Translations under genes and position numbers: made by a program
Notes under the pieces: model-generated
What the model saw: the letters and a program-made list of their open reading frames with translations, nothing else
What the model was told of the DNA's origin: nothing
Databases searched by the model: none
Source: a virus
Length of the DNA: 26,445 nt
Reading direction: 5' to 3' (one strand)
Virus record (IMG/VR): IMGVR_UViG_3300028197_000132
Location: 1-26,445 of that record
In this document: piece by piece, positions 5,074-9,374 of the stretch
Position numbering within the stretch: the stretch's first letter is position 1
Layout: each line of letters starts with the position of its first letter

Positions 5074-5406
5074 CCACGAGAGCGGCTTTTTCTCTGTTAC
5101 CTCTATCTCTTGTCGTTCGATATATCCGCGCTTCTTGCCTTTGGTCTTGAGGAAGAAGATAGTCGCGGCTGGGTTGCCTTCCTTCACGAGCTTGTAAAGG
5201 TGCGATTCTGCGAAGTCGAGGACACCGTCTTGAATGGAGTTGACCGCGCTCTTATATTCTTGGTCTGACTTGAGCCATGCGTAATGGGTCGAGCGATCAA
5301 TCCTAACCATCTTCGCGGCTGTGGAGACGATACCAAGCGACTTCTCCAAGGCTTCCAACATAGCCTCTTTTTTAGTGTTGGATGTGTTGGTCTTAAGTGC
5401 TTCCAT
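5062..5406 (-). CDS. terS: Terminase small subunit
   Basis: This 114-residue protein recognises phage DNA and loads the large subunit for packaging. Residues about 20-50 form an HTH (LGIVSTAAKMVRIDRSTHYAW), followed by an oligomerisation part with the family pattern LYKLVKEGNPAATIFFLKTKG and then KRGYIERQEIEV. This matches small terminases of phages and prophages closely. The ATG overlaps the stop of the ParB-like gene (TAATG), so the two are probably translated together. Only a 45-residue ORF separates it from terL. Confidence 0.92.
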   Translation of the reverse strand: MEALKTNTSNTKKEAMLEALEKSLGIVSTAAKMVRIDRSTHYAWLKSDQEYKSAVNSIQDGVLDFAESHLYKLVKEGNPAATIFFLKTKGKKRGYIERQEIEVTEKKPLSWLDS

Positions 5407-5810
5407 TATTTACCGCATAATTCACATTTGACTTTTTCTTCTTTCTCTTCGGGTTCCTCTTGGGGATCCCATACGTTAAGCATCCAATCGTTCAATTCGG
5501 TTGCATCCCATTCGTTCGCGAGAATATCCATGTCGTGTTCTCCTGCGTTGGTGTTGTCCTTTATCGTAAACTCTCGGTCTTTTAGTTCGCCCCATGTAGC
5601 GACATAGACCGGAGCCTCTTTGAGTCCCGCTGCTTTGCACGCTTTGAATCTCATGTTCCCTCCGATTATAACCATGTCGGGGTTGACAACGATGGGTCGT
5701 GCTTGGAGCATCTCGGGGAACTCTCGGATTGATTGAACGAGCTTGTCGAACCTCTCCTCTTTAATCGTCCTCGGATTCCGGGGATTCTCCCTTATCGCTG
5801 AGAGTTTCAT
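5406..5810 (-). CDS. ParB/sulfiredoxin-like domain protein
   Basis: This 134-residue protein has a ParB-like N-terminal domain: MKLSAIRENPRNPRTI, then a helix with FDKLVQSIREFPEML, then ARPIVVNPDMVIIGGNMRFKAC with the GGNMR motif. In phages such stand-alone domains sit near methyltransferases and terminases and may bind or cut DNA; their role is poorly known. The C-terminus is acidic (EEPEEKEEK) and ends CELCGK, a possible half zinc site. I chose the ATG at 5810, where the ParB motif begins and a GGAA lies about 9 bases before, over one 45 bases upstream. It overlaps the preceding gene by 50 bases and terS by TAATG. Confidence 0.8.
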   Translation of the reverse strand: MKLSAIRENPRNPRTIKEERFDKLVQSIREFPEMLQARPIVVNPDMVIIGGNMRFKACKAAGLKEAPVYVATWGELKDREFTIKDNTNAGEHDMDILANEWDATELNDWMLNVWDPQEEPEEKEEKVKCELCGK

Positions 5811-5982
5811 TGGCTTGTTCCAAGACGGCTTCGAGGGTATATCGGAAGTCTGCATTATGAACGGCTAGGGTTAGAAGTAAAGTCGCGGGGTCGTCCCCGG
5901 CATGGAGTCGAATTGCTTTGTCATTCTCCGTGATGAGAAGGAAGTTCTTCGCATGGAGGAGGGCTTTTCTTGCGTTTCTCAT
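5761..5982 (-). CDS. Hypothetical protein, 73 aa
   Basis: I do not recognise this short acidic protein. From the ATG at 5982, which overlaps the methyltransferase stop (ATGA), it begins MRNARKALLHAKNFLLITEN and is mostly helical by composition, with an Asp/Glu/Ser-rich tail. An ATG 36 bases upstream is possible but would overlap the methyltransferase by 40 bases. The overlaps on both sides place it firmly in the operon. It contains DPATLLLTLAVHN, which looks like a packed helix. Confidence 0.7.
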   Translation of the reverse strand: MRNARKALLHAKNFLLITENDKAIRLHAGDDPATLLLTLAVHNADFRYTLEAVLEQANETLSDKGESPESEDD

Positions 5983-6802: not shown

Positions 6803-7182
6803 TCTGTTTCGTTTACTAGTTTTTGAAGCTCCTGAAGCATCCGACGGTTGCACGAACTGCATTGACTTGCTTGGGTGTTTGTTCCTGTCACCTTCGAATA
6901 GAGCTTCGCGAGTTGTCCGTTTGTTCTGAATTGGTTCTCTGTCTGAAGAAATGTCTTGATCGCGTCGATGTCTGCTTGTTTTATTTCTGCTTCCCACTTA
7001 CCGAGAGGACAAGACGCAACCTTGAGACGTGTCTTCGTGGGCATATGGCATCCGCACAACTTCGAGTCGGTGAAGGCTTCTGTCACGAGGTCTCCGCAAC
7101 TCTTGGTCTTCTCGACGAAGTGTTCGCAAGCGTTGCAGATCGTGAGTCGGTCAGTCCTCTTTTGTGCCGTTACGAAGAACAT
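6799..7182 (-). CDS. Cys-rich, probably zinc-binding protein
   Basis: This 127-residue protein has two cysteine clusters. The first comprises C16 and C19 (ICNACEHF), C29, C43 and C45 (LCGCHMP) and C58 (CPLGKW), spaced like a double zinc site. The second is C108 and C111 (CSSCNRRM) near the C-terminus. The order CxxC, CGC and CPLGKW recurs in small proteins of Bacteroidota phages as far as I can recall, with no known role. It overlaps the sigma-like gene by 32 bases and the next gene by ATGA. Position among regulatory genes suggests nucleic-acid binding, which is inference only. Confidence 0.78.
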   Translation of the reverse strand: MFFVTAQKRTDRLTICNACEHFVEKTKSCGDLVTEAFTDSKLCGCHMPTKTRLKVASCPLGKWEAEIKQADIDAIKTFLQTENQFRTNGQLAKLYSKVTGTNTQASQCSSCNRRMLQELQKLVNETE

Positions 7183-7636
7183 CTTTCAGGATTTTTCGGG
7201 TGATGTGTAGTGAGCGATAAAGGGTCGATTCTCCAACGCCAGACCGTCGAGATACGTCAGCCATGTTCCACCCTTGCAGGTATAGAGAGAAGATAGTTCT
7301 ATCGAACCACGATAGGCGGTCAAGGATGAGTTGCATCTGTTCGCGTTGGATGGCTTTCGTCCAATCGCTTTCGAAGGTTTGTTCTTTGGGGTCAGCATCG
7401 GTGACGTGATATAAGTCTTTAAATTTTCCTCGTGTGGCTTCGGTGTACATCGCTTTCACAAAGTACCCGAGCGGGTTGTCATTATCCCCATCGGGAAAGC
7501 GTTTGTCTACACATCGAAGATACGTGTGATGTACAAGGTCGGAAGGGCTGTCCGTCCATCGTCGAGCGATTCGAACAAGTTTTGAATAATGCTTCGTTAA
7601 GAAGCTATTCCAACCCTTTCGACTTCCTGAGTTCAT
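7151..7636 (-). CDS. Sigma-70-like (ECF-type) transcription factor
   Basis: This protein resembles a small sigma factor. The N-terminal part (FLTKHYSKLVRIARRWTDSP, then SDLVHHTYLRCVDK) looks like region 2, which melts the -10 element. The C-terminal part (MADVSRRSGVGESTLYRSLH) looks like the region 4 helix-turn-helix that binds the -35 element. In a phage it would direct host RNA polymerase to phage promoters, most likely late ones. I chose the ATG at 7636, which gives 161 residues and a 31-base overlap with the NinG-like gene. An ATG at 7684 would add 16 basic residues and overlap by 80. It could instead be a DNA-binding regulator without sigma activity. Confidence 0.75.
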   Translation of the reverse strand: MNSGSRKGWNSFLTKHYSKLVRIARRWTDSPSDLVHHTYLRCVDKRFPDGDNDNPLGYFVKAMYTEATRGKFKDLYHVTDADPKEQTFESDWTKAIQREQMQLILDRLSWFDRTIFSLYLQGWNMADVSRRSGVGESTLYRSLHITRKILKDVLRNGTKED

Positions 7637-8006
7637 CGACTTTCTTCTTGTATATTTTGCAAAGGTCTTCCAATTCGTGAACACTGAATCGCTTCGTTTC
7701 GTTGCTTAACCGAACAAGGTAATCCGCTGTCCCTTCTCCGTGTAGTTCGTCGAGACGTTTCGCGAATTCGTATTGTGCTCCCCCTTCGAATCCGTTGCAA
7801 GCCTTGCATTGAAATTGAACGTTGAGTTCATCGAAGCGGGTGGGCATCTTTTGCCGTACCATGAAATGCCCAGCGTCCGCGTTCTTGTAGAATCGTAAGC
7901 GCCCGCAAGTGAAGCACTCTCCCCACCCTTCATCGTTGACCGCGCGAATTCGGATGAACTGGGAGAATATCTTATCGAGCTTCGCTTTCGCTTTCGCTAC
8001 TGTCAT
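7605..8006 (-). CDS. ninG: NinG-like recombination nuclease
   Basis: This 133-residue protein matches the lambda NinG (Rap) family, which in lambda acts on branched recombination intermediates. It has two zinc pairs, C31/C34 (ECFTCGR) and C67/C70 (QCKACNGF), with DAGHF (H47) and TRFDELNVQFQC between them, as in the family. Its place after the replication genes agrees with a role in resolving or recombining replicating phage DNA. It overlaps the upstream gene by 35 bases; the overlap is a short GCGAAA repeat that codes AKAKAK here and SESESE upstream. Confidence 0.9.
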   Translation of the reverse strand: MTVAKAKAKLDKIFSQFIRIRAVNDEGWGECFTCGRLRFYKNADAGHFMVRQKMPTRFDELNVQFQCKACNGFEGGAQYEFAKRLDELHGEGTADYLVRLSNETKRFSVHELEDLCKIYKKKVDELRKSKGLE

Positions 8007-8541
8007 TCTTTCCGGGTATCAAGAAGGGGTTGTTCTTCATGCGCCATTTGAGTCGAGCTTCTTCGGGATCGTAAGGCTTTACGTTCTTGGGGTCTTCGGC
8101 TCCTCGTGTCACCGTCTTATGTTGTTGTTCAAGAATGGCGGCTCGTTCTTCTTCGTGCTTAATGATGCAGTCGCGAAACTCCTGAATCTTGAGTCGCTCG
8201 TAGAAATTGCCGTAATATCCTTGTTTCATCCTCTCGCAAATTAAGCGAAGCTCCTCGAGTTTCAAAACCGGGAAGACTTCAAAGATAGTTTCTGCGCAAA
8301 GTGCCATGTCTTCGAATGAGTGAAGGGTCTTCTTTGCGTCTATGAATTGAACCGTCTTGTTGATCATGGTCACGACTGCCGCCCGAGTCTCTTCGGGATG
8401 GTGTCGGAGGCTGGTCAGAATGTTAGTTCCTGCCCACGCCTGTTCGTTGGTGGGTTTAAAGATGCCCGTGCTTGAGATATGCTGTAAGCTGGTCTTGGCT
8501 CGGTTGCTTTGGAGTTGCTTTTTTGTTTGTTGTAAATTCAT
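7972..8541 (-). CDS. Hypothetical replication-associated protein, 189 aa
   Basis: I cannot name this protein. The N-terminus is polar and Gln/Lys-rich. The middle is helical, with HSFEDMALCAETIFEVFPVL, then LKLEELRLICERMKQGYYGN and FYERLKIQEFRDCI. The C-terminus is charged and ends in Ser/Glu repeats. The middle part resembles a group of Bacteroidota prophage proteins found beside replication genes, possibly primosome accessory or helicase-loading factors; that is a weak memory-based link. The ATG at 8541 overlaps the end of the replication initiator by 86 bases, unusually long here, but no later start fits. Position between initiator and nuclease supports a replication role. Confidence 0.72.
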   Translation of the reverse strand: MNLQQTKKQLQSNRAKTSLQHISSTGIFKPTNEQAWAGTNILTSLRHHPEETRAAVVTMINKTVQFIDAKKTLHSFEDMALCAETIFEVFPVLKLEELRLICERMKQGYYGNFYERLKIQEFRDCIIKHEEERAAILEQQHKTVTRGAEDPKNVKPYDPEEARLKWRMKNNPFLIPGKNDSSESESEAR

Positions 8542-9127
8542 TGCTTCGTTTTATCCAGTTTCGCGCAGCAGCATTCCAATTCTTCATCTTGTTTCTGCCG
8601 GCTTTCCATCCGTTTGCTTCGTAGTAGTTCCAAAATTTCTCGCCTTCGTCGCGAGATGATCCCGCAAGTTCGAACGAATTCATCGCTTCTTCCAAACTTG
8701 GTTCCTTGAAACGTACTCTCTTAACTCCATCTATACTCTTCTCTTGACTCTTCTCTATACTCTGCGCAACTGTAGTTGCTTCTTTTGCAACAGTAGTTGC
8801 AACTTTTGCAACGATAGTTGCTTCTTCTTGCAACGATTGTTGCTTGTTCCTATCGTTGCTTGTTCCGATTGTTGCTTCTACGAGAACTGTCATCTTCCTT
8901 CGGTGACCGTACCCTTCGCATTTGATGTGTTCGGTCTCGCAAAGGTCTTTGCGCATCTTGCGGATATACTGAGAAGAGACCCCAAGAGACTCAGCGAGGA
9001 AGTCATCTCCCGCCCAACACGATCCGTCTTTGTGACTGAGCGCGTGAATTTTAGAGAGTAGAATTCTTTGCATGGGAGAGAGGTCATCCAACAACCAAAT
9101 CTCTTGGGGGATCCATATTCCGTTCAT
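8456..9127 (-). CDS. Replication initiator (winged-helix, origin-binding type)
   Basis: This protein probably binds the phage origin and recruits the host helicase. From the ATG at 9127 it starts MNGIWIPQEIWLLDDLSPMQ, the typical opening of Bacteroidota phage HTH_36-like initiators. A winged-helix part follows with CWAGDDFLAESLGVSSQYIR and KMRKDLCETEHI. A repetitive linker (ATIVAKVATTVAKEATTVAQ) comes next. The C-terminal domain has FWNYYEANGWKAGRNKMKNW and AAARNWIKR, the WKxGxxxMxxWxAAxxxW pattern of phage replisome organisers. A GTG at 9181 would add 18 residues but overlap the HTH gene. The linker codons form an iteron-like DNA array, as in lambda O. The C-terminal codons overlap the next gene. 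Confidence 0.85.
   Translation of the reverse strand: MNGIWIPQEIWLLDDLSPMQRILLSKIHALSHKDGSCWAGDDFLAESLGVSSQYIRKMRKDLCETEHIKCEGYGHRRKMTVLVEATIGTSNDRNKQQSLQEEATIVAKVATTVAKEATTVAQSIEKSQEKSIDGVKRVRFKEPSLEEAMNSFELAGSSRDEGEKFWNYYEANGWKAGRNKMKNWNAAARNWIKRSNEFTTNKKATPKQPSQDQLTAYLKHGHL
8766..8875. other. Probable replication origin: iteron-like palindromes inside the initiator gene
   Basis: Four copies of GCAAC-N4-GTTGC lie at 8766-8779, 8787-8800, 8808-8821 and 8830-8843. They are 21, 21 and 22 bases apart, two helix turns, so all would face the same side of the DNA. Two half sites (GTTGC at 8855-8859 and 8871-8875) follow at 16-base steps. Each whole site is a palindrome, as expected for a dimeric initiator. 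Lambdoid phages place origin iterons inside the O gene in the same way. The repeated protein linker alone would not require palindromes. Confidence 0.7.
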
Positions 9128-9158: not shown

Positions 9159-9374
9159 TCATTCGACCCCCTCTCTTTCACATATTAAAACCTCTTCGAC
9201 GATTTCCGCAAATGTCGCTCCGCACGTCTCAGATATTTCTGGGAGGTGCTTGAGGATATTACGGGGATTGCGTCCGCACCAATTACGAACGGTGTTGGGT
9301 GTGACATCCAGCGTCTTTGCTGCTGTCAATGTAGAACCGTAGTTCCTAACGATAAAGAGCTTTATATTATTCAT
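9159..9374 (-). CDS. Small helix-turn-helix DNA-binding protein
   Basis: This 71-residue protein has an HTH at about residues 15-43 (TLTAAKTLDVTPNTVRNW). Its pattern is like Cro/CI- or Fis-type single-domain regulators: Ala-Ala before the turn and TPNTVRNW as the recognition helix. It probably represses or switches early transcription around the replication genes. It overlaps the Myb-like gene by 8 bases and ends 31 bases before the initiator ATG. With no integrase in the genome, a lysogeny repressor role is unlikely, though not excluded. Confidence 0.8.
   Translation of the reverse strand: MNNIKLFIVRNYGSTLTAAKTLDVTPNTVRNWCGRNPRNILKHLPEISETCGATFAEIVEEVLICEREGVE

Follow-up and report, generated by a model that had tools for sequence, protein, structure and literature searches.

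Palindromic iterons within the coding sequence of an HTH_36 initiator: a probable replication origin of an uncultured phage group

Where might the replication origin of an uncultured phage be sought? An origin inside the gene for its own initiator is an already known kind of arrangement, as in lambda O, SPP1 oriL and the rep genes of pSK41 and pPR9. The lambda ori has four palindromic iterons in the middle of gene O (PMC5043065). In the staphylococcal pSK41, the winged-HTH N-terminal domain of the RepA_N-type Rep binds four Rep boxes in the middle of its own gene, and the linker is dispensable; in the hybrid rep of pPR9, HTH_36 (PF13730) and its origin segment have together taken the place of RepA_N and its origin, and the C-terminal domain has been retained (PMC5703833). 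SPP1 oriL, within gene 38, which encodes the origin-binding protein, has repeats and an AT-rich unwinding element, and the loader gp39 is required (PMC6316719). In the iteron plasmids P1, RK2 and F, helically phased initiator sites lie beside an AT-rich block (PMC5043065).

The window analysed here, a whole stretch of 26,445 nucleotides of viral DNA, very probably carries a phage replication origin of the lambda-like kind inside an HTH_36 initiator gene. The first-pass annotation had placed an origin there; comparison among relatives supports this placement, and the HTH_36 domain, the AT-rich block and the lambda parallel strengthen it. The features concerned are as follows.

8456..9127, minus strand: initiator gene, 223 aa, assigned by HTH_36 (PF13730), phrog_270 and structure prediction
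8701..8765, minus strand: AT-rich, purine-strand-biased 12-base repeats (AGTAWAGARNN), a candidate unwinding element, adjoining the array towards the 3' end of the initiator gene
8766-8779, read on the plus strand: palindromic iteron 1, GCAACTGTAGTTGC, perfect GCAAC-N4-GTTGC
8787-8800, read on the plus strand: palindromic iteron 2, GCAACAGTAGTTGC, perfect GCAAC-N4-GTTGC
8808-8821, read on the plus strand: palindromic iteron 3, GCAACGATAGTTGC, perfect GCAAC-N4-GTTGC
8830-8843, read on the plus strand: palindromic iteron 4, GCAACGATTGTTGC, perfect GCAAC-N4-GTTGC
8846-8859, read on the plus strand: hybrid site GTTCCTATCGTTGC, at a 16-base step
8862-8875, read on the plus strand: hybrid site GTTCCGATTGTTGC, at a 16-base step

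The four GCAAC-N4-GTTGC palindromes reported earlier at a pitch of 21, 21 and 22 are present exactly, at 8766, 8787, 8808 and 8830, and they are the only exact matches to this motif in the 26.4-kb window. Two further sites had been described as half sites at 16-base steps; their position and step are right, but the label is not, as they are hybrids of a GTTGC arm and a GTTCC arm. The sites at 8846 and 8862 read GTTCC-N4-GTTGC on the plus strand, equivalent to GCAAC-N4-GGAAC on the coding strand, and their GGAAC arm is the iteron arm of distant relatives (GTTCC-N4-GGAAC in L127 and L147). The array falls, as had been claimed, in the linker codons of the initiator, within the part of the 8456-9127 gene that encodes a predicted disordered linker. 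When the protein was held fixed and synonymous codons were drawn at random according to window codon usage, four palindromes appeared in 3 of 200,000 trials; when the synonymous codons of the gene itself were shuffled, four appeared in 10 of 50,000. On the plus strand, an antisense ORF with cysteine-rich repeats (CSCFFCNSSCNFCNDSC) runs over the array at 8744-9061 and is open in close relatives too; it most likely results from the palindromes.

The initiator protein matches HTH_36 (PF13730) with a Pfam E-value of 3.4e-6 and 27.2 bits against a gathering cutoff of 25, and among the PHROG profiles it matches phrog_270 (replication initiation protein, 1e-11), phrog_19658 (7e-7) and phrog_2880 (1e-6), with O-like families also represented. 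Its predicted structure has a confident winged HTH at residues 1-82, a linker at 84-138 with pLDDT below 50, which is predicted to be disordered, and a helical C-terminal domain. In Foldseek, a DNA-binding N-terminal domain comes first, at E=1.6e-3 (just above 0.001) and with a TM-score below 0.5 over the HTH only, and an entry titled 'Structure of initiator' ranks just after it. Pfam finds no RepA_N (PF06970) match in the window initiator, whose winged HTH has only a distant fold resemblance to that family. Sequence searches of the PDB with profiles of the initiator and of the next gene gave no match.

How well is the array kept among relatives? Homologs were collected by protein search too, avoiding selection on the motif itself, and the set comprises 54 genes with at least 49% identity to the initiator and the linker covered. 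All 54, which are not fully independent since some loci overlap the same contigs, hold at least two palindromes (two to five). No palindrome copies lie outside the initiator at the examined loci, 555 kb around initiators, and none lie outside the array in five larger records (25.5-40.3 kb). In viral_contigs, 61 contigs have an exact palindrome pair at 21-base spacing, amounting to 20 fixed bases, and on inspection about 50 of the matches are in homologous initiator genes. In 45 distinct genes the palindromes are spaced only by 21, 22, 32, 42 or 43 bases, corresponding to 2.0, 2.1, 3.05, 4.0 and 4.1 helical turns, in eight spacing and phase patterns. The array is kept in proteins down to 40% identity, with the N4 cores and flanks diverged. 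Within the recognition helix of the HTH, Gln53 does not vary among the clades with GCAAC arms.

The AT-rich repeats accompany the array. In the window their 12-base units are at 8754-8765, 8742-8753 and 8730-8741, and the AT content of 8701-8760 is 62-65%, a modest enrichment; some 210 bases beyond, in the same gene, a 40-base stretch is slightly AT-richer. Every clade has AT-rich 12-base repeats next to the array, towards the 3' end of the initiator gene. The 60 bases 3' of the array average 67% AT, compared with 55% for the whole gene, and are AT-richer than the gene as a whole in all 44 measurable genes. The same computation applied to lambda as a control places the AT-richest 40-base window 2 bases past iteron 4.

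Is it the DNA or the peptide that is under selection? A spacing of 21 bases is seven codons, so the array could be read as a functional seven-residue linker repeat, ATTVAK(E/V), with the palindromes as a codon accident, and seven-codon ATTVA repeats do yield GCAAC-N4-GTTGC pairs in unrelated Ala/Thr/Val-rich proteins (L027, L057). In the window gene, however, the first palindrome of the array is in phase 2 and the other three are in phase 0, and because of this frame change a repeat in the peptide is not enough to account for the one in the DNA. Across the 45 distinct genes the palindromes divide between two codon phases, 92 against 89, and the point at which the frame switches differs between clades. 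Phase 0 is read as ATTVA and phase 2 as QPQLQ or QQSLQ, unrelated peptides, such that identical DNA is translated as ATTVAKVATTVA or as QPQLQKKQPQLQ, depending on the clade. Spacings of 22, 32 and 43 are out of step with a codon repeat, the linker is disordered by prediction, and synonymous change in the arms is suppressed: among the 16 closest genes, 1 of 16 arm codons varies synonymously, compared with 55 of 132 codons outside the array (Fisher p=0.005). We consider a functional linker repeat very unlikely and dropped it, as frame switching contradicts it; on comparison of the sequences, the repeated peptide is ruled out as the cause. The earlier proposal that the linker peptide is a by-product of selection on the DNA is supported by the frame switching and the suppressed synonymous arm change. 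The comparison of related genomes that had been named beforehand as a test, whether spacing is kept as the linker drifts, found the palindromes and their phasing kept and the peptide rewritten. Selection at the DNA level within a coding gene is seen here with unusual clarity: the sites are conserved, and the reading frame and peptide change.

Around the initiator gene lie the following.

7972..8541, minus strand: next gene, DUF6633-like, phrog_35728, all-helical, with an 86-base overlap with the initiator gene
7605..8006, minus strand: NinG/Rap-like recombination endonuclease (PF05766, 3.5e-14; phrog_5034, 1.7e-28)
9159-9374: Cro-like HTH gene, adjoining the initiator
5406-5855: ParB_N-domain protein

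The parallel with lambda O that had been drawn at the outset holds: there too the iterons lie mid-initiator gene, not confined to one codon phase (0, 2, 2 and 1 in lambda), the AT-rich block (40 bp in lambda) directly follows the last of them, an overlapping gene comes next (P in lambda, a candidate loader here), and a NinG-type gene belongs to the cluster (the lambda nin region). Unlike in lambda, the iteron, of another sequence, is a 5-4-5 palindrome rather than 18 bp, the pitch is more regular (21/22 against 20/24/23), the N-terminal domain is of the HTH_36 type and the next gene is not recognisably P. With the pSK41 and pPR9 rep genes the locus shares a winged-HTH N-terminal domain, iterons central in their own gene, and an HTH and origin that are swapped together; those, however, are Firmicutes plasmids, and here there are other C-terminal types and 14-base palindromic iterons. 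SPP1 oriL likewise combines origin repeats and an AT-rich element within an initiator-type gene, but its repeats are direct, and SPP1 has a second origin, oriR, elsewhere and a phage-encoded helicase, gp40. The helical phasing beside an AT-rich block is also that of P1, RK2 and F, whose iterons, unlike those of the window, are mostly direct repeats bound by monomers.

The next gene encodes a candidate helicase loader, in the slot of lambda P and SPP1 gp39. Its profile and predicted fold gave no match to a loader by sequence or profile and no significant fold-search match, so the proposed role comes from its position. The gene is kept alongside both C-terminal types of the initiator, and two cultured phages that share the initiator C-terminal domain have, in the same slot, a gene annotated as a DnaC-like loader or a DNA helicase. 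No polymerase or helicase was recognised among the searched genes of the window; as the window is a 26-kb contig fragment, this does not establish the step that the first-pass annotation had taken from a lack of such genes to recruitment of the host replisome. Right past NinG, at 7151-7684, there is a Sigma-70/ECF-like protein that is kept in relatives and is possibly a phage late-gene regulator.

Could the array serve another purpose? Palindromic HTH sites are typical of operators, and with a Cro-like HTH gene next to the initiator the array might be an autoregulatory operator, bound within the gene as a roadblock by the initiator or another regulator, and no origin. We think this improbable: the palindrome is absent upstream of the initiator gene, elsewhere in the window and, outside the array, in the five larger records, four or five phased copies with an AT-rich repeat block form an origin architecture, and the array is co-inherited with the HTH. 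That co-inheritance, the change of motif with the HTH and the AT-rich repeats that follow also weigh against a site for partition, packaging or recombination whose place within the initiator gene is fortuitous, which we regard as highly unlikely. Phage packaging sites can lie in genes and the window does encode a ParB_N-domain protein, but the latter matches methyltransferase-linked families here, and in relatives the ParB_N region is the head of a larger protein with methyltransferase-like sequence. Tandem arrays can arise through slippage, and recent duplications or mobile repeats without function might thus leave such palindromes; retention of the array down to 40% protein identity with diverged N4 cores and flanks, together with suppressed arm variation, makes this scarcely credible.

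Two general marks of origins were sought as well. The first-pass annotation had suggested that cumulative GC skew should switch at the array, and this was not borne out, as the curve does not turn at the array, either in the window or in a 40-kb relative. The global skew minimum of lambda, computed as a control, also misses its proven origin; skew is therefore uninformative, and we counted no refutation. There is no DnaA-like box near the array, and the single consensus match in the window, far off at 311, is fewer than expected by chance. The lambda origin is not known to need a DnaA-like box.

If the array is an origin, how would it work? The N-terminal winged HTH of the initiator, probably as a dimer, would bind each palindromic iteron in the DNA that encodes its own linker. 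With the sites on one face of the helix (a pitch of 21/22 bases, and also 32, 42 and 43 in relatives), the bound protein would form a stacked nucleoprotein complex that could strain and melt the neighbouring AT-rich 12-base repeats. The C-terminal domain and the product of the next gene may then recruit the replicative helicase, and the disordered linker peptide would be free to follow whatever the DNA sites dictate.

The initiators of this group appear to be modular. In L041 and L037 the HTH is 89% identical and the C-terminal region 35%, and the array is present in both. In L127, L129, L146 and L147, at 36-39% identity, the palindromes are instead GTTCC-N4-GGAAC, with mostly similar pitch and some 16-base steps, and L146 and L147 retain the AT-rich 12-base repeats. 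A second initiator in a 40-kb relative has GCGCA-N6-TGCGC sites at 22-base pitch, followed by its own AT-rich repeats and phrog_35728 gene; this second pair and its array lie at L187:10825-12070 in G001, a 40,311-base viral contig that may join two phages or prophages, since a second tape-measure gene is present. The linkers of three cultured phages that share the C-terminal domain, Chlorobiaceae CV-1-33, Vibrio Seahorse and Porphyromonas 005b, contain no such array. Because the array is retained while the C-terminal domain is swapped and the motif changes with the HTH, the iterons go with the DNA-binding domain rather than with the C-terminal one.

In the light of this modularity, the HTH and its own iterons could tentatively be viewed as a general, exchangeable replicator cassette of HTH_36-type phage initiators, in which the arms change from GCAAC to GTTCC to GCGCA types, the helical pitch is kept, and the GCAAC-N4-GGAAC hybrids of the window are intermediates between two specificities. 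We hold this broader reading with less assurance than the origin itself; if it is true, the initiator gene could directly reveal the origins and compatibility groups of many uncultured phages. The arrangement suggests a route to new origin specificity that does not break the initiator, with a single gene holding the DNA-binding domain together with its iterons and the helicase-recruiting domain swapped.

The probable replication origin of an uncultured phage group has thus been located from sequence alone. The host is likely of the Bacteroidota type; this is only likely because no close relative was found in genome_contigs and the terminase is 42% identical to its nearest counterparts, from Flavobacterium and Bacteroides phages. 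Similar arrays are seen elsewhere. At L060:9600-10322, an initiator of another type, lambda-O-like by look, has TAGGCAACCACAGTTGCCTA sites, some of them complete and others half copies, in several frames, with an AT-rich stretch after them, and this is apparently an independent case of a nearly identical core motif. In a relative at L169:8001-8582, on a bacterial genome contig from an uncultured Croceitalea sp., four GACCCCTTCGG repeats at 21-base spacing lie in an initiator linker, where they encode TPSENRQ units, and these are possibly another origin array.
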